DNA from: Chloroflexi bacterium TSY
GTDB lineage: Bacteria; Chloroflexota; Anaerolineae; Caldilineales; Caldilineaceae
DNA length: 64,000 bases
Direction: 5' to 3'
Assembly: GCA_019217005.1 (NCBI GenBank)
Contig: JAHBNG010000009.1
Coordinates: 62,001-126,000 of the forward strand
Shown here piece by piece: positions 998 through 53,207 of the stretch. A program made the translations under genes and the position numbers. The notes beneath the pieces were generated by a model. That model had not been told where the DNA came from and made no database searches. It saw only the letters and a program-made list of their open reading frames with translations. Positions within the stretch are counted from its first letter, which is position 1; every line of letters starts with the position of its first letter.

Positions 998-1777
998 TTA
1001 TTGTCCGTCAATCACGATTCGTTCACCAAGCTCAATCCCGCGCTCATTGAGTCTATCCGCCGCTGCCAACAACAAATTTGTTTGATGAGGTTCTATAGCT
1101 GCTTCTTCAACGTATACGCGTAAGATGTAGACGTCGCAAGTCGTAAGGTTATAGTGTACGACCGGTGCCCAGATCTCTTGACCTTCGTCATCATATTCTT
1201 GAAGACGCTCAGGATAGGCATATCCGACACCGAGCAACAATCGGATCACATCGGTTCGATTATGTAACGAACGGATAGGAATGCGAGCTGAAATGCGAGT
1301 CACGGGAAAGCCGCTATGCACGGTCAACATTTCTGATAAGACATCAGAGTTGTTCAAGATAATTTTATCATGATCAAAGGTGCGAAGAACCGTATTAAAA
1401 GCCGTGATCTCTTCAACTTTACCTTTGATCCCTTTGACCGTGATCACGTCCGCCACTCGATAGTAGCTATACATAATGAGCTTTGCCGTTGAGACTAAGT
1501 CACCGATGCTCGAATGCAAAGCCAGCGACGCGCCAGCACCGATAATCGTGATCAAGGTCAAAAAGACGGCAGCCTTAACACCCGTTACGAAGACGATTGT
1601 GCTGGCACCCAAGAGGAGCACCAACATTTGTGCGATTCCGGCAATTAAATTCGCGTAATTAGGCGTGATATGTTTTAGAATTAGAAGGAGGGCTTGCCGT
1701 ATGCCGAATGATGCACCAACAAAGAGTAGTCCCAAAATGATACCAACAATGATATTAATTAGGATGCTGTCAAACAT
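998..1777 (-). CDS. Small MscS-family mechanosensitive channel protein (260 aa)
   Basis: About three transmembrane segments (residues roughly 5-30, 42-62 and 70-100) are followed by the MscS-type pore helix. That helix is rich in Gly and Ala, then the chain runs Ser-Ile-Gly-Asp-Leu and into an Arg-Val-Ala-Asp-Val-Ile stretch that begins the cytoplasmic beta domain. Members open under membrane tension and release solutes during hypo-osmotic shock. The ATG at 1777 is chosen because an AAGGA lies about 11 bases upstream. The frame continues upstream to 1918, but that part is repeat B and MITE A sequence. At 260 aa it is close to the minimal MscS core. The downstream gene at 977 follows after 20 bp. 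Confidence 0.8.
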   Translation of the reverse strand: MFDSILINIIVGIILGLLFVGASFGIRQALLLILKHITPNYANLIAGIAQMLVLLLGASTIVFVTGVKAAVFLTLITIIGAGASLALHSSIGDLVSTAKLIMYSYYRVADVITVKGIKGKVEEITAFNTVLRTFDHDKIILNNSDVLSEMLTVHSGFPVTRISARIPIRSLHNRTDVIRLLLGVGYAYPERLQEYDDEGQEIWAPVVHYNLTTCDVYILRVYVEEAAIEPHQTNLLLAAADRLNERGIELGERIVIDGQ

Positions 1778-1806
1778 TTGATCGCGATGTCCTTGTGTCA
1801 AAATAA

Positions 1807-2082
1807 GTTCTTTGAGGTTTTGTGGCGTAAACGTTGGATAGTTGGTTGGTTTGCTCGTTTGTTCACCAACCATCTGGGGTGGTTCAAAATTAGGTTTACA
1901 CTTTTGATATATAGACAAAAATCTATATGAGACCGTTTTCTCTCTGAGAACCGGCGAAATCAGAGAATATAAACGTTCTTTCTGTTTCTAAAAGTGTAAA
2001 CCTATCTATCCAGCTAAAATGAACCACCCCAACCATCTAACCAGCAAACCAACTGAAAACTACACAATTCCTCAGACAACCT
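1807..2082. repeat. Repeat B copy 1, a palindromic element split by MITE A
   Basis: The left half (1807-1875) and right half (2031-2082) together match the uninterrupted copy at 6660-6764. Both have arms built from a GAGGTTTTGTGG-like left end and a CTCAGACAACC-like right end, with a central GTTGGATAGTT palindrome. MITE A sits exactly between the halves, so B was here first. B lies about 30 bp upstream of the MscS start and must have replaced or separated its native promoter. Confidence 0.7.
1876..2030. mobile_element. MITE A copy 1 (155 bp)
   Basis: Ends are GGGGTGGTTC and GAACCACCCC, with longer imperfect inverted arms that include AGGTTTACACTTTTGA. It is flanked by a perfect 8 bp direct repeat, AACCATCT, at 1868-1875 and 2031-2038. 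It lies inside repeat B. There is no transposase, so it is a non-autonomous element. Confidence 0.93.
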
Positions 2083-3022: not shown

Positions 3023-6000
3023 TTAAGGGAAGTTGGGCGGACAAGCTTGATCAAAGTAACGAAATGCACCATCGACTACCTGGATAATCACTGCGCACTT
3101 TTGTGGATCGCCCTCTTCGTTGAAACTCATAACGCCGGTGACCCCATCAAAGCGATCAATCCGATCAAGGGCGTCACGGATGGCCGCTTTTTCGATCACA
3201 TTGACATTTTGGATAGCGTGAAATAACAGTTGGAAAGCATCATAGGTCAGAGCCGCCGTGTCATCCGGTACTTCCTCATAAACTTCTTGATACGCCGGCA
3301 CAAACTTCTGCGCGACATCGCTGACAATATCGGGCGCATAATGTGCGCTAAAGATGAGTCCCTCACAGGCATCGCCGCATTGCTCCAGCAAGACAGATTT
3401 TCCCCAACTATCGCCACCGATCAATGGCACATCAATCCCAATTGCGCGGGCTTGCTGGGCAATATTGACTGTATCCTGAACGAGGCTTGGTGCGAAGATC
3501 AGATCGGGATTACTTGCTTGAATGCGAGCCAATTGGTCCCCAAAATCGCTGTCATCAGTTTCAAAGCTCTCAAAGGAGACGATCAGACCCCCTAATGCCT
3601 CAAAGCTATCACGAAAATTCAGCGCCAACCCTGTCGAATAGTTGTTATTTACATCATACAGAATTGCAGCTCTTGTGGCCCTTAGTTCTCTTGTGACAAA
3701 GTCGGCCATTACCTGACCTTGGAAGGGATCCAGGTACGGCACGCGGAAGACCCAAGGTCGATCCTTTGTTGTCGCTGGGTTTGTCGACTTGGGGCTAATC
3801 AGCGGCGTCTGCTGTTCGTTGGCAAATCTGCCTGTTGGCACAGCCTGTCTGGAGGATTGAGGACCAATGATGGCGACCACATTTTCTTGTGCAATCAAAC
3901 GACTGGCGCTTTCCACTGACATACTCGGTTCCGTTTGGTTGTCCTCGATCAGGAGCTTTAGCGTGTAGGTACGACCGGCGACTTTCAGACCACCCGCTGC
4001 ATTGATCTCTTGGACAGCAAAATCAGCCGCATTCTTCGTGCTCTTGCCATTGGTAGAGCCACCGCTAAGTGGAGCAATGAGACCAATGCGGATGTTGCCT
4101 CCCTCTTGACGAAAGATTGGCTCAACGGCAGCAGAACTTTCGCTGCGAACTGAGGGTGGTAGTAGAAAGACAATTGATATGGCTAGAAAGACACCCGTTA
4201 CCAGGGGCCAATAAAGTAATTTGGGCAGGAGGTTGTGATGGAATCTGTTGACAATAGTCTTGACATTTGAATGATAGAGGATCGAATTGAGCGATATCGA
4301 TAGGATGGTGATATACAGAACAATATATCCGCTTTCCAGATAGACAACGCCAGGAATCTCTAACTCGTCACGAAGTCCGATATGTGAAACGGCCACAACA
4401 AAGAAAAGGGAAGCACCATATCCCAGTACCGTGAAGGAGCCGTCAACTTCGACGAGAAGCACAGCAAAGGCTAAGGCAAAGACAATAAGCATTGTGACAG
4501 CATGAGCAACGACTGGCGAGATGATGGCACGACGAATGATTACGTTGAAGTAGAGATCGGGTACATTGCGCTTGCGGATCAAATTTTGGCTGCCAAAATC
4601 TGCATTGTAGTCATCATAGCGATAGCTGAAGTAGCTGCGGTCGATTTTCCAATTTTCTAGTACCAAAACGTCAACAATACCTGGATTCTTGCTCGGGATC
4701 GTGAATTCATAACCGCTTAAATCGGGGATAAGAACAATATGTGGGGAAAGCGATTGGGGCCAAATTTGGATCTGGACAGTCGCTTCATCAAGCGGATATT
4801 TTTCTACGCTCGGTTCCTGACGCAATGTGGCACGGAAAAACCAAACAATTAATTCGTGGCCATCTTCTTCTATGCGATACAACTCCTCAACTTGACCGGC
4901 CAGCGGATCGACCACGTCGGTCAAGAGAAAGCCCTTTTCAATATCGTCTGGGAGATCGAGTGGATATTTCTGCCAAATGTAGCCACTCGCCACATTCTCA
5001 TTGCTGTTGGCAAAGCCGATTGTCTCCAGCATCACCCCCGTTGGAATTTGAATTGGTGGTGGCAGCGCATCGCGTTCGAAAGCAAGGTTGACCTGGGCTA
5101 GATGTTGATCGACCGTGCCTTGGTTGACGAGCACATTCTGTGTCGGGTCGCGTGGAGTATATTCAATTGAGAGATACCAAAGGACAACGATGAATGTGAC
5201 AAAGAGGAGCGAGACGATAATCGATATGGTCCACAAGTTGGAATCTGAGATACGGTCAATGCGCAAAAAGAGAACAATGAGCAGAATGAGCAATAGGGTC
5301 CCTGAGAGCATGACCCAAATGAGTGTCCGCACAAAGGCATTCGGTCTATCTTGCTCAATGGTCTTATCGAACACGACGCCAATCGACCACTCTGCTTGAT
5401 CAAGATGGCGATGAAAGATCCAGGCATCCCGTTCTGTCACTGGATCAAGACCTCCGATATCGAACTCTTTTTCATTTGAAAGACGATCGCCAATGTTGCG
5501 CAATATCTCACTATCTAATTCATTCGCCTTGTCATAGATAGATTGTCGGATAAAATCGGGGTCGGGGTGTGAGATAAATTTGCCGTCATTGGTCAGGAGG
5601 TAGGTAAACCCTTCTTCGCCTGTATCCACCGATTTGAGCAACTGATTGAATGTTTCGAGGGAATGAACGACGGAGACCAGGCCAATTGGATCTTGGGGTT
5701 CTGCAAGGATCTCTGGATTTTGCGTTGCTTTGTAGAAAGGGACGTTGTAATTCACCAACCACTCCTGTGAAGCCCGCCCAAAGTAGGGATCGTGCCAGCT
5801 CCCTGTGCCGCTCATTGCTTCTCGATACCAGGCTGCCGCAGTCAAATCTGGATCGGTATAGTCATAGAAATCTTCTACATAAATTAGCTCGAACTCACCA
5901 TTTAAACTTTTTTTGTAGTATGGCGCATAGAGTTTGTCTGGTTCATATACGCCACGCGCAAAAACAACGCTCAATCCAAAGATGTCTTTGTAACCTTTGA

Positions 6001-6313
6001 GTTCGTTTTCCATGCGTTCGTTGATCTGGTCATATTTCAGAGCCCCGATCGAAAGATCTGTAGAGATCCGGTCGGCTAACGCCTGTAAGCGAGCAAGCTC
6101 CAGATCAATCTTCGCGGCGATCTTGTTGGCATTTTCGTTGGCGATCCTATATGAAGTGGCTGTTTTAACTGTGATTTCCTGATAGAGCTGATTGCCAAAG
6201 TATAAGGTAGAACCCAATGCGGCAAGACAGAGGAGAGTGAGCGAAATAATCACGAAATTGGGGCGACGTTGGATCGCAGCGTGATAGGCGGAGGTTTTGG
6301 TTAGTTGTGCCAT
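3023..6313 (-). CDS. Giant receptor: Cache sensor + pentameric ligand-gated channel-like body + Leu/Ile/Val-type periplasmic binding domain (1096 aa)
   Basis: Numbering is from the ATG at 6313; upstream in-frame codons lie in hairpin D. TM1 is at about 20-42. An extracellular double-Cache domain spans about 45-320 (Trp-Tyr-Arg-Glu-Ala near 162, Pro-Tyr-Phe-Gly near 176). TM2 is at about 330-351 and TM3 at about 361-382. Residues about 415-595 follow the Cys-loop receptor ectodomain pattern: Gly-Tyr-Ile-Trp at 444, Tyr-Pro-Leu-Asp at 506 in the pro-loop position, and an Ile-Ile-Arg-Arg pre-M1 motif at 592. Four helices follow (about 599-622, 626-646, 660-682, 699-718), with Glu-Ile-Pro-Gly in the M2-M3 loop. 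Residues about 740-1096 are a type I periplasmic binding fold with four Cys near the end. The predicted topology is self-consistent: both ligand domains and the C-terminus lie outside. No kinase, HAMP or methyl-accepting domain is present. The channel assignment is from motif pattern only. Confidence 0.75.
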   Translation of the reverse strand: MAQLTKTSAYHAAIQRRPNFVIISLTLLCLAALGSTLYFGNQLYQEITVKTATSYRIANENANKIAAKIDLELARLQALADRISTDLSIGALKYDQINERMENELKGYKDIFGLSVVFARGVYEPDKLYAPYYKKSLNGEFELIYVEDFYDYTDPDLTAAAWYREAMSGTGSWHDPYFGRASQEWLVNYNVPFYKATQNPEILAEPQDPIGLVSVVHSLETFNQLLKSVDTGEEGFTYLLTNDGKFISHPDPDFIRQSIYDKANELDSEILRNIGDRLSNEKEFDIGGLDPVTERDAWIFHRHLDQAEWSIGVVFDKTIEQDRPNAFVRTLIWVMLSGTLLLILLIVLFLRIDRISDSNLWTISIIVSLLFVTFIVVLWYLSIEYTPRDPTQNVLVNQGTVDQHLAQVNLAFERDALPPPIQIPTGVMLETIGFANSNENVASGYIWQKYPLDLPDDIEKGFLLTDVVDPLAGQVEELYRIEEDGHELIVWFFRATLRQEPSVEKYPLDEATVQIQIWPQSLSPHIVLIPDLSGYEFTIPSKNPGIVDVLVLENWKIDRSYFSYRYDDYNADFGSQNLIRKRNVPDLYFNVIIRRAIISPVVAHAVTMLIVFALAFAVLLVEVDGSFTVLGYGASLFFVVAVSHIGLRDELEIPGVVYLESGYIVLYITILSISLNSILYHSNVKTIVNRFHHNLLPKLLYWPLVTGVFLAISIVFLLPPSVRSESSAAVEPIFRQEGGNIRIGLIAPLSGGSTNGKSTKNAADFAVQEINAAGGLKVAGRTYTLKLLIEDNQTEPSMSVESASRLIAQENVVAIIGPQSSRQAVPTGRFANEQQTPLISPKSTNPATTKDRPWVFRVPYLDPFQGQVMADFVTRELRATRAAILYDVNNNYSTGLALNFRDSFEALGGLIVSFESFETDDSDFGDQLARIQASNPDLIFAPSLVQDTVNIAQQARAIGIDVPLIGGDSWGKSVLLEQCGDACEGLIFSAHYAPDIVSDVAQKFVPAYQEVYEEVPDDTAALTYDAFQLLFHAIQNVNVIEKAAIRDALDRIDRFDGVTGVMSFNEEGDPQKCAVIIQVVDGAFRYFDQACPPNFP

Positions 6314-6338: not shown

Positions 6339-6411
6339 GTGTGTCCCACAGTGTGTAAATGGAGACCGTTCAGTCAGAGAGTCTGCACCATTTACACACT
6401 TTGTGGTACAC
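6339..6411. repeat. Hairpin repeat D copy 1 (73 bp)
   Basis: The left arm begins GTGTGTCCCACAGTGTGTAA and the right arm ends with ACACACTTTGTGGTACAC; they pair with few mismatches. The loop includes a CAGTCAGAGAG motif kept in other copies. It sits 26 bp upstream of the receptor start, so it lies in its 5' leader or promoter. Confidence 0.85.
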
Positions 6412-6787: not shown

Positions 6788-6903
6788 CTATGGAAAATCA
6801 GGTGGACAAGCCTGATCGAAATATTGAAAGCTTTCATCCACAATCCGAACAATTACGGCGCACTTCTGTGGATCGCCGTTTTGACCAAATCTCATTGTGC
6901 CCG
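6788..6903 (-). pseudogene. 3' remnant of the second receptor gene (end of the periplasmic binding domain)
   Basis: Read on the minus strand this gives about 38 residues ending at a TAG at 6788-6790. They align closely with the last residues of the intact receptor: both contain Gly-Asp-Pro-Gln-Lys-Cys-Ala-Val-Ile and end Tyr-Phe-Asp-Gln-Ala-Cys-Pro-Pro-X-Phe-Pro. It shows the disrupted paralogue once carried the same C-terminal binding domain. The piece abuts the ISAzo13 fragment at a TAA. Confidence 0.9.
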
Positions 6904-6906
6904 TAA

Positions 6907-7446
6907 GGCTAAACCAAAAAAATAATTATACGCGAACGAGAGAATGGAGAGGGGGAATAAGGACAAACCATTTTTCTAAACCAGGTAAACGTTGGAAGCG
7001 TTGTTCCAAACGGTCCATCTCTTTCTGAGTGAGTTTGACGCCGGTCTCATAAAGAGTGGAATTCAGGTGAACGAAGGGTTGTAGTTGGTTAAAGCGAAAA
7101 GAACCGTTCCAGTGTTTTTCAAGATGGCCCCAAACCCGTTCGATGGGGTTGTATTTACTGTGATAAGGAGGGTAGCAGGCGAGCTGAATAGAGAGACGAT
7201 AGTGCTCAACAAACTGAGTGAGACGATACATAAACTGAGTCCGACGGGTATGATTTTCGGGACCATTGCCCTGATTGATCACGAGGGTCTTGACGTGAGG
7301 AAAGTGTTCACGTACGCTTTCCCAAAAATCAATCAGGCAGTCGACAATACAGTCACTCGTCACTTTCGACTGAGTCAAGTAAAGAAAGAGTTCCTTGGTT
7401 GAAGGGAGGTAAATGCCAAAAGGAGTGACTTTCTCGGTCTTCTTAT
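6907..7446 (-). mobile_element. ISAzo13-family IS fragment (copy 1), 3' part only
   Basis: The sequence is nearly identical to 38225-38780 of the longer copy, including the end GGCTAAACC. It encodes the C-terminal catalytic part of the transposase (6926-7378): Asn-Gly-Pro-Glu-Asn, then Pro-Pro-Tyr-His-Ser-Lys-Tyr-Asn-Pro-Ile-Glu-Arg, which carries the DDE glutamate. It lacks 42 bp present in copy 2 and retains 27 bp that copy 2 lacks. The 5' half of the IS is gone, together with the middle of the host receptor gene, so a deletion followed insertion. Confidence 0.9.
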
Positions 7447-9656
7447 GCTGTTGTAATTGCGAGGAAAAAACCCGTGATCAAGGGCCAGTAAAGGAGTTTG
7501 GGCCAGAGATTATCTTTGTACCGGACAAATTCATAGATCCAACTCGATACGTTTCGTTCTGTCTTTGCCGTAGGAGACGCAGGACTGGATAGAGTTGAAG
7601 AATGAGGGTGAATCTTCGAATAGTAAAGAATCGAATTTAAGGAGATCGACAATATCGTTAAGTAGAGAAGGATATACCCATATTCGAGATAGACAACGCC
7701 CGGAATCTCTAATTCGTCGCGCAGACCAATGTGTGAGATAGCCACCACAAAAAAGAGGCTGGCACCATATCCCAGAACCGTAAAGGAGCCATCAACTTGA
7801 ACCAAAAGGACTCCGAAGGCCAACGCAGCAACAATCACCATTGTTATCGCATTGGCGACCAATGGTGAGATGATGGCGCGCCGAATAATGACATTGAAGT
7901 AGAGATCTGGGACGTTGTGTTTGCGGATCTGTTTGCGGCTGCCAAAATTGGCATTATAATCATCATAGCTATAAAAACTGCGATCAAGCTGCCAGTTTTC
8001 TAAAACAATCACATCAACAATACCAGGTGTCTTACTTGGAATTGTCAACTCGTAACCATCTAAATCGGGAACCAGGATAATGCGCGGGGAGAGGGACTTG
8101 GGCCATATTTGAATCTGTACAGTCGCCTCATCAAGCGGGTACTTTTCGACACTGGGTTCTTGCCGCAATGTAGCACGAAAGAACCAGACAATCATTTCAT
8201 AACCATCTTCTTGTACACGGTAGAGCTCTTTGACTTGCCCAGCAAATGGATCCACTGCGTCTGTGAACAAGAATCCTCTTTCAATGTCATCTGGTAGATC
8301 AAGAGGATATTTCTGCCAAAGATAGCCACTCACCAAGTTCTCATTGCTGTTGGCGAAACCAATTGTTTCCACCATAATGCCTGTTGGAATCTGAATGGGA
8401 GGTTGGAGATCATCACGCTCGAATGCCAGGTTCACTTGGGTCAGATGCTCATCCACATCCAGTTGATTGGTTAAGACGTTCTGTGAGGTATCGCGTGGCG
8501 TATAATGAATTGATAGATACCAAAGGATCACCATCGCACCCGTAAATAGAATTGAAACAAGAATCGACATGGTCCAGAGGCGTGCAAGCGAGGGATGATC
8601 GATCTGTAAAAGGAGCGCGACAAGGGTTAGAACGAATAGATTCCCCAAAAGCATGACCCAAATAAATTGACGCAATAGATTGTTTGGATCACTTTGACCA
8701 ACGCTTTTATCGAAAACAACACCGACGGACCAGTCGGCCCGCGCAATCTGATGGTGAAAGGTCCAAGTAGAACCTCCCGTGATTGGATCGATGCCTTCTA
8801 CATAGAACTCCTCTCGATTGAGAACTCCTTCGCGAATACTATTGAGCAACGAACTGTTTAATTCGCTGGCTTTATCTATGATCGATTGCTGGACATAATC
8901 AGGATCAGGATGTGAAATATAATTCCCTTCATTCGTTAGTAGGTAGCTAAACCCTTCCTCACCTGTATCAACCGATTCGAGTAGCTGATTCAATGTCTTG
9001 AGCGAGTGATTTACGTAAACAATGCCAACGGGAGATTGGCGTTCTTCCTGTCCCTCCAGATTTTGTACAGGTTGAAAGAAGGGGACATTGTATTCAACAA
9101 GCCATTCTTGAGATGCTTGCCCAAAATAGGGTTCAAGCCACAAACCATTGCTAGCGATTGCTTCTCGATACCAAGCCGCCGATGTCAAAACAAGATCGGT
9201 ATAATCATAAATATCCTCTATCTGAATGAGTTCAAATTCATCATCCTGATTTTTTTTGAAATAAGGGGCATATAGCTGATCGGGTTCGTAGATGCCACGT
9301 TTAAAAGCAACGCCCAATCCAAAAATATCTTGGTAATTTCGGAGCTCATCTTCAAGACGATTGGGAATCTGCTCATAGTGAAGCGATCCGGTCGATAGAT
9401 CGCGAGCAATTCGGTTGGCCAACATCTGTAAACGGGCCAACTCCCGGTCAATTTTCTGTGCACTATGGCTTGCGTTCTCTTTGGCAGTCTCCAGTGATGC
9501 AGCTCTTTGTGCTCTTGTGTCTTGATAGAAATGGTAACCAAGATAGAGGGTCGAACTTAGACTAGCAAGGCAAAACAGGATGAGTAGGCCAAGAAGTATT
9601 GTTGAGCGATTCTCGTGAATAGATAGTCGAACCGAAGTCCGTTTGTTCTGAAACAT
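7447..9656 (-). pseudogene. Second Cache + ligand-gated channel-like receptor, truncated before its binding domain
   Basis: This is a paralogue of the receptor at 3023-6313 along its whole length: signal/TM1, Cache domain, TM2-TM3, channel-like ectodomain (Gly-Tyr-Leu-Trp, Tyr-Pro-Leu-Asp, Ile-Ile-Arg-Arg all kept) and M1-M3. The loop between M3 and M4 is about 28 residues longer than in the intact copy, while M4 aligns again. This fits the variable cytoplasmic M3-M4 loop of pentameric channels. The frame ends in M4, where the ISAzo13 fragment begins. About 340 residues, nearly the whole binding domain, are deleted; only the tail survives at 6788-6903. The ATG at 9656 is preferred; an in-frame ATG at 9731 has no ribosome binding site. 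A truncated channel without the binding domain might still be made, but I call it a pseudogene. Confidence 0.8.
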
Positions 9657-10233: not shown

Positions 10234-10750
10234 TTAATCGCCCTCTACAGCTGGTTGGTCTGCCAATAGCCACGAACAGATAATCAGGCCACAAAAAGCG
10301 CCGGCAAATTGTGCGGCGATAAAGAACGGCATATCAAGTGGTCGGATACCGGCAAATGTATCCGAAAACGTACGCGCGATTGTGACGGCAGGATTCGCAA
10401 ACGATGTAGATGCCGTAAACCAATAAGCAGCCGTAATGTAGAGCCCAACTGCCATTGCAACAGCACTTTCCTTCGCACGCAACGTGGCAAGGATCGTGAA
10501 CACCAGCCCAAACGTTGCCACCAATTCCGCAAACCACTGCGATGGCCCTGCCCGCTATCTTCGCCGAGTATTGAAAAACCACCTCTTCGAACATTAGATG
10601 TGCAACCCAAACACCAATCAGGCCGCCAAGGATCTGGGCAAGAATGTACCAGATGCTATCGAGAGCGGGCATATCACGTTTTGCAGCAAAGATAGCTGTG
10701 ACCGCGGGATTAAAATGCGCCCCTGAGATTGGCTCCAGCATTGTGATCAA
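10234..10750 (-). pseudogene. MIP/aquaporin-family channel remnant
   Basis: Two pieces of a major intrinsic protein are readable. The first (from 10750) has the NPA motif in Ser-Gly-Ala-His-Phe-Asn-Pro-Ala-Val-Thr. The second (10234-10524) has the second NPA box in Ser-Phe-Ala-Asn-Pro-Ala-Val-Thr-Ile-Ala-Arg, with the selectivity-filter Arg. The pieces are in different frames, joined by a single-base shift near 10530. The first transmembrane helix (about 40 residues) is missing upstream of 10750. The protein family conducts water, glycerol or metalloids. With two lesions it is unlikely to work. Confidence 0.8.
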
Positions 10751-13280: not shown

Positions 13281-14886
13281 ATGAATAGACTCAACCGACG
13301 GAATTTCCTACGCCTCTCCGGTGCTGGTGCGACAATGGCCGTATTCGCTGCCTGTGCACCCGCTGCAGCCCCTGCGCCCGATCCAGCTCGTTCTGCTGAC
13401 GAGCCGGCATCCGAACCCGTTCAACTCTCGTGGATCATGCGCAGCCAGCCGCGCGAGAATGAGTGGGAAGAAGAACGAGTCGCAACCTGGCAAGAACAAA
13501 ATCCAGGCCAAGAGGTCAATCTGATTATCGTGCCGTTTAACGAGATGGATCCCAAGCTCAATGCCATGATCGCCGCTGGCACACCGCCAGACATCTTTTC
13601 CCAATGGGGACAATCGGGTTTTGGAGACTCAGTAGATCCAAATTTCAGGTTTTGAGAGAGAATTCTGGCTAAACAGTTGACATAAATACAAATTTGCCGG
13701 TCGATATCTAGTTTTTGCGTTAGATTTGGGCGATTTTCAGATATGAAATAGGTTGTTTTCTGTAACCGAAATCTGAATAAATGACTCCAAAATCCCTGCA
13801 ATCTCGACTGAAAATAGCCAAAAACGCCAAATTTGGATCTACTGAGTCTACTTTGCGCGGGATCTGATGCTCGATTTAACACCCTTTATTGAACGTGATG
13901 ATTATGATATGGGCCAGTTCCTGGAGGCTTCAATTGTGCCTTACGAGCGCGATGGCAAGTTCTTCTTCCTGCCACAGGTCAATAACTTTGCCATCATGTT
14001 CTTCTATAACAAAGATCTCTTTGATGAAGCAGGATTGGACTATCCAACCACAGATTGGACAGACACCGAATCTTGGAATTGGGATGTAATGCTTGACTAT
14101 GCCCAAACCTTAACCAAAAATTATGGCCAGGGTCTGGATGCCCAGTATGGCATCAACTTAACCCGCGGTGTTCATCATTTGGCTTATCTTTATGGCGGCG
14201 ACGCGTTTACGCCAGAACATTACGAGACGGGGCTTTCCCAAACCAGTCAGCTCGATAGCGATCTGGTCATAGAGGCCGTTCAAGCGCGCGCCGATCTCGT
14301 CTATAAAGATGAAGTGTCGCCCTCACCCGCTGATCTGGAAAGTCTTTCGCAGTTGGGCAATATCTTCATGACGGGCAAGATCGGCATGGTCGACAGCGGC
14401 TCGTGGGGAATGCGCGTCTTCCAAGATGCAGCGTTCCGTTTTGGCGTTGCTCCTCTCCCTGGCAAGTATGACAACAAACGCTACGCCTTTACTGGTACAT
14501 GGCTCTTCGCCCGCGAAACGCCCAATCCAGACGCGGCATGGGAATTTGGCAAATACTTGGTGAGTGAAGAATCTTGTCGCCTTCTGGCAGATGTAGGCTT
14601 TGGTTCACCACGCGATAATGTCAACAAAGAAGTTTGGCTTCCTAAATATTCTGATAAGACCGAGATGACGACCGAGGAACTCCAGAGTGTAATCTTTGGG
14701 TCACTCGACTATAGTGTTGAACATGTGAATCACCTGTTCGTTGGTTGGCCTCAAATTAACCAAACCATCAACCAGGACACCGATCCAATTTGGCTCGGCA
14801 ACGCCTCTGCTGCCGACGTGCTAAGCGAAACCAAGGGCAAACTGGACACAGTACTGGGCAATATTTACGATGAATTTGCAGGGTGA
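13281..14886 (+). pseudogene. Extracellular sugar-binding lipoprotein (CUT1), split by MITE F
   Basis: The N-terminus has a twin-arginine signal (Asn-Arg-Arg-Asn-Phe-Leu-Arg) followed by a lipobox ending Phe-Ala-Ala-Cys, so the product would be a Tat-exported lipoprotein. The body matches family 1 solute-binding proteins: Ala-Gly-Thr-Pro-Pro-Asp-Ile near residue 95, and Asp-Ser-Gly-Ser-Trp-Gly and Phe-Thr-Gly-Thr-Trp further on. MITE F at 13630-13844 introduces a stop after about 125 residues; a remnant frame resumes at 13867. Removing the 215 bp plus a 5 bp target duplication restores one frame through Gly-Phe-Gly-Asp-Tyr-Phe-Ala-Arg-Asp. AAAGGA lies 8 bases before the start. With the binding protein broken, the transporter would be inactive unless another binding protein substitutes. 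Confidence 0.9.
13630..13844. mobile_element. MITE F copy 1 (215 bp)
   Basis: Ends CAGTAGATCCAAATTTC and AATTTGGATCTACTG are inverted repeats. The flanks are AGACT on the left (13625-13629) and AGTCT on the right (13845-13849), one base off a perfect duplication. Same orientation as copy 2, nearly identical in sequence, and opposite to copy 3. One strand carries a roughly 70-codon open frame in all three copies, but nothing suggests it is translated. Confidence 0.93.
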
Positions 14887-51851: not shown

Positions 51852-53207
51852 TTAGCGAATAAAACCTTCGTAATTGCGCATAAGCAACTGCGCCTCAATC
51901 TGCTTCATCGTATCTAAGACGACGCCGACCACAATCAACAGTCCGGTACTACTAATGATGAGCGTATTATAGTTCGTTAATGCTCCCGCACCCTGGCTGG
52001 AAACTAAATCAGCGACGCGACCAACCAGATAAGGGAGGACAGCAATGAGCCCCAAAAATAGAGCACCGACGAGTGTAATACGCCCCAATATACCATTCAA
52101 ATAGGCTTCGGTCCGTGGACCAGGACGGATTCCAGGGATAAATCCGCCTTGTTTTTGCAACGTTTCTGGTAAGTTTTGCTGTCGAAACATTACATCAGTA
52201 TAGAAATAAGTAAAGGCGACAGTTAATAGAAAATAGAATATCCAATAAAATACGCTACTTGGGTTAAAGCCATTAAAAACGGCTGACGCGATACTGTTGA
52301 TCCATGGCGTAGCACTGCCAACAAAATAGCTCGCAACTGTACTGGGCAAAATCAATAAGCTGTTGGCAAAAATCAGTGGAATCATACCCGCTGTATTGAC
52401 ACGCATCGGAACATGTGTGCTTTGGCCACCGACCATCATGAGCCGATTGCCCCGCATTGTCCGCACGCGTTTTCCATATTGCACTGGAATTCGACGTTGA
52501 CCTTCCTGGACCCACACAATCAATGCAATTGTCAAAATTGTGATGACTGTAAAAATCAATAGCATTACAACATTAGATGAGAGCTGTCGAATCTGTCCCG
52601 GCACAGCTGACAAAATTCCGGCAAATATAATGAGCGACACACCATTACCGACGCCTTGTTCAGTCAATAACTGCCCCAACCAAACAGCAAATAATGTGCC
52701 AGCCGTCATGCCAATAATAAGCGTAAATGAGGTCAGAAACGCATCCCCCGTAAATCCCCAATTTGTCAGAAGATTAGAAAACTGTCGGTTTAGCAAAGTT
52801 GCTTGCGTAATGCCTTGCAACAAAGCCAGAGGCACAGTAAGCCAATACGTATATTGGTTAATTTTTTGCCGTCCTTGCTCTCCCTCTTTGCTCAATTCTT
52901 CAAGTGCGGGAACTATCGGCGTCAGAAGCTGCATAATAATCGAGGAAGTAATATAGGGATAAACACCCAATGCCATTACCCCCATCTGCGCAAGGCCACC
53001 ACCGCTAAAGAAATTTAAAAAACTTAACAGCGTCTGAATCCCACCTTCTCCCCCTTCACCGCTAAACGCTTGGGCGAGCACTTCTCGATTCACGCCTGGC
53101 AAAGGAATATTGGCTGCAAACCGATAGAGAACCAGAATTCCAAACGTAATTAACAGTTTGCGGCGTAGATCGGGCAGACGAAACGCATTTTGTACAGCTT
53201 CAAACAT
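51852..53207 (-). CDS. secY: Protein translocase subunit SecY
   Basis: 451 residues with ten transmembrane helices, the channel of the general secretion pathway. Starts with a short amphipathic helix (Phe-Arg-Leu-Pro-Asp-Leu-Arg-Arg-Lys), has Asn-Ile-Pro-Leu-Pro-Gly-Val near the plug, and a Lys-Arg-Val-Arg loop around 255 in the SecA-binding region. GGAG lies 9 bases before the ATG. It follows rplO by 34 bp. Confidence 0.97.
   Translation of the reverse strand: MFEAVQNAFRLPDLRRKLLITFGILVLYRFAANIPLPGVNREVLAQAFSGEGGEGGIQTLLSFLNFFSGGGLAQMGVMALGVYPYITSSIIMQLLTPIVPALEELSKEGEQGRQKINQYTYWLTVPLALLQGITQATLLNRQFSNLLTNWGFTGDAFLTSFTLIIGMTAGTLFAVWLGQLLTEQGVGNGVSLIIFAGILSAVPGQIRQLSSNVVMLLIFTVITILTIALIVWVQEGQRRIPVQYGKRVRTMRGNRLMMVGGQSTHVPMRVNTAGMIPLIFANSLLILPSTVASYFVGSATPWINSIASAVFNGFNPSSVFYWIFYFLLTVAFTYFYTDVMFRQQNLPETLQKQGGFIPGIRPGPRTEAYLNGILGRITLVGALFLGLIAVLPYLVGRVADLVSSQGAGALTNYNTLIISSTGLLIVVGVVLDTMKQIEAQLLMRNYEGFIR

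Follow-up and report, generated by a model that had tools for sequence, protein, structure and literature searches.

Can a single bacterial protein chain join two separate extracellular sensors to a ligand-gated ion channel? The question is raised by a long open reading frame (ORF) in a 64,000-nucleotide stretch of Chloroflexi bacterium TSY (assembly GCA_019217005.1, contig JAHBNG010000009.1, positions 62,001 to 126,000 of the forward strand), referred to below as the window and numbered from its first letter. An initial annotation had described a 1096-residue frame at 3023..6313 as a Cache sensor, a channel of the Cys-loop/pro-loop type and an amino-acid-type periplasmic binding protein in one chain. 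The analysis presented here places the core of this ORF, with near certainty, in the pentameric ligand-gated ion channel (pLGIC) superfamily. The best explanation of the whole gene, at a probability of about 60%, is that its product is a subunit of a Cys-less (pro-loop) bacterial pLGIC with two extra extracellular sensors, a C-terminal tail and a Cache domain, which would modulate the channel. Beyond the earlier description, the tail was found to be one of at least five kinds carried by related cores, some of them double.

Results

The frame is real and lies on the minus strand, which the initial annotation had not given. It runs from an ATG at 6313 to a stop codon at 3023-3025; a GTG at 6349, 12 codons upstream, is an alternative start giving 1108 residues, and the plus strand across 3023-6313 holds many stops. 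One protein search match (P0001) is the ORF itself, identical across the query. Pfam recognized only dCache_1 and Peripla_BP_6, with nothing credible between them. The domain order that had been claimed is present in the full AlphaFold2 model, the helices of which match seven hydrophobic segments in the hydropathy profile. From the N-terminus, and all on the minus strand, the gene at 3023..6313 encodes a first transmembrane helix (TM1, residues 17-40, 6194..6265), the dCache_1 sensor (residues 64-313 of 1096, 5375..6124), two linking helices defined by model and hydropathy (TM2 and TM3, residues 324-349 and 357-384, 5162..5344), a pLGIC ectodomain of a helix and beta strands (residues 393-595, 4529..5137), four helices M1 to M4, and a type I solute-binding protein (residues 741-1082, 3068..4093) joined to the outer end of M4 by a linker of about 23 residues. 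Residues 1-22 include three Arg or Lys and no acidic residue; with the helix count, this charge suggests an N-terminus inside, so that the Cache domain, the ectodomain and the binding protein would all lie outside.

The predicted model of the core has a pLGIC-type ectodomain and four-helix fold, matching GLIC and ELIC structures. For profile-profile comparison, a canonical set was assembled from eight loci with Pfam Neur_chan_LBD, found in 8 of 146 genomes from the phylum of G003, which was reached from a Microcystis locus; expansion of locus L092 yielded 41 proteins, and 46 of these sequences formed the canonical alignment. A core profile of 51 rows aligned with this set in hhalign over 251 columns with a probability of 99.3 and an E-value of 9.8e-21, compared with 0.019 for a column-reversed profile and 0.31-0.58 for five column shuffles; against the eight canonical loci alone the E-value was 9.6e-14. 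NCBIfam and single-sequence PDB searches returned nothing for the core, relatives L067 and L045 included. Structure and profile-profile comparison thus support the earlier reading of a ligand-gated channel fused to a Cache domain and a binding protein.

The motifs on which that reading had relied were located, with Gly-Tyr-Ile-Trp at residue 444, Tyr-Pro-Leu-Asp at 506 (pro-loop, residues 506-509, 4787..4798) and Ile-Ile-Arg-Arg at 592; Lys-Tyr-Pro-Leu-Asp occurs twice in the ORF. Residues were counted in 89 family rows, including the ORF and a tandem paralog described below, and in the 46 canonical rows. The pro-loop Pro is invariant in both (89/89 and 46/46), and the Asp two positions later is found in 86 of 89 family rows (Asp or Glu in 88) and 45 of 46 canonical rows. 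The Arg preceding M1, Arg 595 in the ORF, is kept in 87/89 (Arg or Lys in 88/89) and 45/46, respectively, and the Trp of Gly-Tyr-Ile-Trp in 89/89 and 38/46. M1 (residues 598-620, 4454..4522) and the presumably pore-lining M2 (residues 626-651, 4361..4438) were assigned from model and alignment, and M3 (residues 658-681, 4271..4342) and M4 (residues 695-717, 4163..4231) from the model. The proline predicted for the M2-M3 loop is present in the ORF, but many relatives differ at this site. Nor is it the counterpart of the proline in the canonical Leu-Pro, opposite which the family alignment has a gap; the M2-M3 proline was dropped as a family mark. Residues 380-738 contain no Cys, so the core lacks a disulfide-bonded Cys-loop and an animal-type Cys-loop receptor was ruled out.

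The M2 segment itself bears on whether the core conducts ions. At the presumed 9' gate, Phe occupies 86 of 89 family rows and Leu 39 of 46 canonical rows, and the presumed 19' residue is Arg in all 89 family rows compared with Asn in 29, Ser in 12 and Arg in one of the 46 canonical rows. These labels are provisional, since the register depends on an alignment, in which canonical L088 has a similar run, LRQELP, and may be wrong by two positions: matching prolines instead shifts it by that amount. A reading of ion selectivity from M2 was dropped on this account. The unusual Phe, together with the lack of a conserved acidic residue at the inner M2 end in ten family rows inspected, would suit a non-conducting receptor of channel fold in which Cache domain and tail act by shape change only, as a scaffold or signalling receptor, and the tetratricopeptide repeat (TPR) array preceding the Cache domain in two relatives (L008, L020) could give it cytoplasmic contacts. 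Such a receptor is considered unlikely: the M2 segment is retained with its uniform Arg, and Pfam found no kinase, MCP (methyl-accepting chemotaxis protein) or other known signalling output domain in the proteins scanned (for L008 and L020, among the top 25 of the 40 and 35 families, respectively).

Both sensors were recognized directly. The dCache_1 match (PF02743) has an E-value of 1.9e-13 and 50.9 bits against a cut-off of 45, and the domain also resembles PctA-type Cache structures. Peripla_BP_6 matched with an E-value of 1.6e-59 and 202.8 bits against a cut-off of 31.7, over positions 2-342 of the 343 in the profile, and residues 741-1082 align nearly full-length with the Leu/Ile/Val-type binding proteins 3td9, 4gnr and 1usg (E-values from 2.8e-55, for 3td9, to 3.8e-26). 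In 1usg, we take Ser79, Thr102, Tyr202 and Glu226 to be contacts of the amino-acid ligand, of which Ser79, Thr102 and the acid at 226 would contact its backbone. In an alignment counted by hand, Ser79 and Thr102 are kept in the tail, Glu226 is Asp and Tyr202 is Leu, so that an amino-acid-like ligand is no more than plausible for the C-terminal module. The Cache domain differs. The available text of PMC10104139 gives R126 and D173 of PctA as central to the motif of amino-acid Cache domains; their equivalents are Ala and Asn in the paralog, again counted by hand, and Ala and Val in the ORF. By this motif a Cache amino-acid sensor (dCache_1AA) was rejected, which leaves an amino-acid ligand plausible for the tail only.

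Relatives were sought with residues 345-750 among 5.8 billion proteins, of which the 7992 candidates sharing most words were scored, yielding 52 proteins including the ORF; a second search, length-limited to long fusions, gave 22 proteins, ten of them new, for a total of 62. More than 250 residues follow the core in 18 of the 62, a proportion not to be taken as a natural frequency since the first search scored only those candidates and the second favours long proteins. These tails are of five kinds. Peripla_BP_6 is found in the ORF and in P0002, the architecture of which is identical (67% identity over the core, 57% over the whole). An UrtA-type domain followed by SBP_bac_1 is found in P0007, P0009 and P0008, the last of which ends inside the tail and was assigned from precomputed Pfam domains and tree position. 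P0004 carries SBP_bac_1 alone; P0011, P0012, P0015, P0017 and P0095-P0098 carry SBP_bac_5, and P0099-P0102 a PnrA/Bmp domain followed by ABC_sub_bind. Tails were scanned singly in 11 of the 17 relatives (P0002, P0004, P0007, P0009, P0012, P0017 and P0097-P0101) and in locus L003, and the remaining six were classified from domains listed with the search matches. Cores under different tails are similar: that of UrtA-tailed P0009 is 50-52% identical to SBP_bac_5-tailed and 53-57% to Peripla_BP_6-tailed cores, but only 37-38% to PnrA-tailed ones.

Tail-less P0003, P0005 and P0006 have cores 56-60% identical to that of the ORF, so the rest of the protein presumably functions without a tail. This would fit gating by Cache domain and ectodomain alone, with the tail concentrating ligand and handing it to the ectodomain; ligand concentration is an idea put forward for accessory domains in the available text of Tasneem et al. 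(PMC549065). Differing tail classes on similar cores, however, would require a single ectodomain site to accept all their ligands, and this explanation appears quite unlikely.

All tailed members with a named phylum are Chloroflexota. The window itself looks Chloroflexota-like by its SecY (51852-53207): in the phylum of the Anaerolineales genome G001 this protein finds a match of 64% over its length (297 of 301 genomes matched), whereas full-length matches reach at most 44% in the phylum of G003 (55 of 59 matched) and matches at most 46% in that of G004, reached from a Marinobacterium locus (59 of 60 matched), these being the three phyla compared. In 67 loci of named species genomes, some frames of which are truncated by stop codons or by the end of a contig, a tail was found in three only (L001-L003, Anaerolineales HSG24 and HSG25); L001 and L002, with cores identical to those of P0011 and P0015, were for this reason assigned to the SBP_bac_5 group. 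Among 400 genomes from the phylum of G001, 11 had a core match, two of them weak (E-values 4e-6 and 7e-4), and tail-length frames, of 1323 and 1397 codons, were seen in G001 only. The part preceding the core in the 67 loci is 200-500 residues long in 47, below 120 in 16, 120-200 in two (L048, L053) and above 600 in two, the cyanobacterial L008 (5115-8990) and L020 (5241-8990), in which the TPR array precedes a Cache-channel unit. Short relatives of about 380-500 residues (L045, L067, L050, L044, L060, L052, L053 and others) are without a full Cache-sized N-terminal part, and the titles of their loci name Proteobacteria, Zixiibacteriota and Streptomyces; the six of this size that were scanned (L052, L053, L045, L067, L057, L061) gave no Pfam channel match, nor did L037. 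P0103 has a tandem pair of Cache domains before the channel, and P0010, P0014, P0018 and P0094 an additional N-terminal multi-helix membrane part of about 200 residues. This part received no Pfam assignment in P0010, P0018 and P0094, the three scanned singly (P0014 was scanned as a member of an alignment); an MscS-like look of its helices, noted by eye, has no Pfam support in these three. Loci L015, L016 and L019 each have another core copy within a few kilobases.

A quick tree, from a short search, was built from 93 core sequences: the ORF, its paralog, 59 of the other 61 proteins, a choice of 28 from the 67 loci, and four of the eight canonical loci. P0037 (a split match) was excluded from the alignments and, with P0018, from the tree, in which 29 of 88 inner branches are open. 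For labelling, P0016, a fragment ending in M3, counted as tail-less and the paralog was classed by its tail remnant. All tailed rows fall within one clade of 31 rows (support 90, not starred), and the Peripla_BP_6 rows group together with the paralog among them (support 96); tail-less rows are interspersed in the tailed clade. Tail state changes eight times compared with a possible minimum of five, a count that fragments such as P0016 among the tail-less rows may inflate. The tree can be read as a channel core kept while tails were gained, lost or exchanged. Like the ORF and its paralog, tailed P0012 and tail-less P0013 are sisters on the tree; for each of these two proteins the longest contig listed measures 89,849 bases.

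The tandem paralog lies upstream, at 7443..9656 on the minus strand, and comprises a Cache domain (dCache_1 37.9 bits, below the cut-off of 45) and a complete pLGIC core in a frame ending just after M4, 65% identical to the ORF over residues 1-713. At the expected site of its binding protein is a fragment of an ISAzo13-type transposase (6926..7378, minus strand; PF07592, E-value 1.7e-32, positions 152-245 of 308), followed by a remnant matching the last 39 residues of the ORF, 1058-1096, with 67% identity in tblastn (6791..6907, minus strand). The paralog may still produce a tail-less subunit, which would make mixed pentamers conceivable. The broken paralog marks an unstable locus, as would be expected if the fusion stemmed from an error of assembly or annotation, or if the gene were dead. 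This explanation is hardly credible: the ORF is unbroken over 1096 codons, the same fusion occurs in P0002 on a 61 kb contig, and the paralog retains a remnant of the same tail. The fusion is accordingly not a chance one, being matched in P0002 and repeated in the window.

Among the neighbouring genes, two ABC (ATP-binding cassette) permease genes and a binding-protein gene are found nearby on the opposite strand. Their proximity, the textbook knowledge that all five tail kinds are families normally feeding ABC transporters, and the scores of P0007 (498.5) and P0009 (503.9) above the NCBIfam cut-off of 492.75 for UrtA of urea ABC transporters would be consistent with a tethered substrate-binding protein that works in trans for an ABC transporter, with the channel as a mere anchor or an unrelated partner. 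Yet the nearby transporter already comes with a binding-protein gene, of a different class (SBP_bac_1 type, 13867-14886), a channel fold is unnecessary for anchoring, and tailed and tail-less rows alike retain the signature residues of the channel; service to a transporter is thus judged improbable. The binding protein of this ABC locus is encoded by two ORFs (13281-13655 and 13867-14886, plus strand), perhaps a split gene. An MscS-type mechanosensitive channel gene (MS_channel_2nd, 998-1918, minus strand) is the second gene downstream of the receptor, and an aquaporin (MIP) match upstream of the paralog (10334-10750, minus strand) covers positions 60-113 of 222 in a gene that looks broken.

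Discussion

Like GLIC and ELIC, the ORF has an ectodomain and four-helix fold without Cys-loop cysteines, and it shares the pro-loop Pro and Asp and the pre-M1 Arg with canonical bacterial pLGICs. In contrast to GLIC and ELIC, to which it is only 10-15% identical, it has no Pfam channel match, carries the presumed 9' Phe and 19' Arg, and adds a Cache domain, two transmembrane helices and a C-terminal binding protein. The available text of Tasneem et al. (PMC549065) reports N-terminal Cache/MCP-N and PBP-I (type I periplasmic binding protein) fusions to ART-LGIC (acetylcholine receptor-type channels), as well as PBP-II genes adjoining pLGIC genes, and proposes ligand concentration and allostery for accessory domains; the initial annotation had referred to such accessory domains correctly. 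The Cache/MCP-N fusions, from Methanosarcina, Cytophaga and Microbulbifer, likewise place an N-terminal Cache domain on a pLGIC core, and tail-less relatives of the ORF appear, by description rather than by sequence, to resemble this class; a C-terminal binding protein is not mentioned for it in that text. The PBP-I fusions, from Magnetospirillum and Bradyrhizobium, also join a binding protein to a pLGIC subunit, N-terminally according to the same text, whereas that of the ORF follows M4 with the Cache domain in front. DeCLIC, also the subject of PMC9897478, is another bacterial pLGIC with additional extracellular modules; the available text of PMC12664993 compares the two lobes of its N-terminal module with calcium-binding domains and names no Cache domain or post-M4 tail. 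The terms Cache, PBP and periplasmic are absent from the available text of Jaiteh et al. (PMC4795631). Leu/Ile/Val-type binding proteins such as 3td9, 4gnr and 1usg are free or lipid-anchored, whereas that of the ORF is covalently joined to a channel. No report of a binding protein after M4 of a pLGIC was found among the papers listed in searches of the open-licence literature, although other print may hold one, and for M4 extensions the same literature yielded a single paper, on muscle nicotinic receptors. The superfamily and the theme of Cache fusion are known; the exchangeable C-terminal sensor position is new.

Several observations weigh against reading the ORF as a channel subunit modulated by two sensors. 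Structural TM-scores are moderate, at 0.50-0.65 among the matches listed, and a sequence profile searched against PDB finds GLIC only at an E-value of about 4, across the pro-loop. For residues 400-720, which the initial annotation had expected to match channels, Pfam alone gave no Neur_chan match (none for the ORF at E <= 1), and no Pfam channel model matches any of 53 aligned sequences (E <= 0.01); since structure and controlled profile-profile comparison were positive, these missing matches are read as a limit of the Pfam models. Tyr202 of 1usg is Leu in the tail, one of the four binding-site residues compared. The placement of the tail was not predicted because the binding protein has low confidence in the full AlphaFold2 model. 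Finally, tail-less proteins are in the majority, with no more than 250 residues after the core in 44 of 62 proteins (a few of them fragments) and in 64 of 67 loci, so the tail is not required for the function of the core.

If the ORF does encode such a subunit, with dCache_1 on a transmembrane hairpin before the ectodomain and a Leu/Ile/Val-type binding protein tethered to the outer end of M4, five subunits would assemble into a channel. A ligand would close the C-terminal binding protein, positioned beside the base of the ectodomain, and the closed protein would pull or push M4 and the pro-loop, with the Cache domain giving a second input via its helices. Both inputs would shift the channel between closed and open, converting extracellular nutrient levels into ion flux. 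Gating or tuning of the channel by its tail is given about even odds. An equally balanced proposition is that a clade of these pLGICs represents a general ion-channel chassis, with one Cache domain and with exchangeable binding proteins, one alone or two in a row, attached to M4 at its outer end, through which urea, peptides, amino acids or other solutes would gate or tune the same core.

pLGICs mediate fast nerve signalling, and the ligands of many bacterial members are unknown. The transporter families to which the tails belong (UrtA, Opp/Dpp type, Leu/Ile/Val type) have been studied in depth, so the tails supply predicted ligands for orphan channels and make the long-standing question of bacterial pLGIC ligands directly testable. 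A core invisible to Pfam, in loci titled as many phyla, broadens the visible spread of the superfamily. If the chassis reading is true, the clade would number among its members the first channels in which a transporter-type binding protein, attached behind the pore at the M4/pro-loop lever, does the gating. A sensor joined to M4 would also probe the control of gating by the M4 end and pro-loop, which is relevant to human receptors. The swapping of the rear sensor among relatives suggests a channel built for interchangeable chemical inputs.

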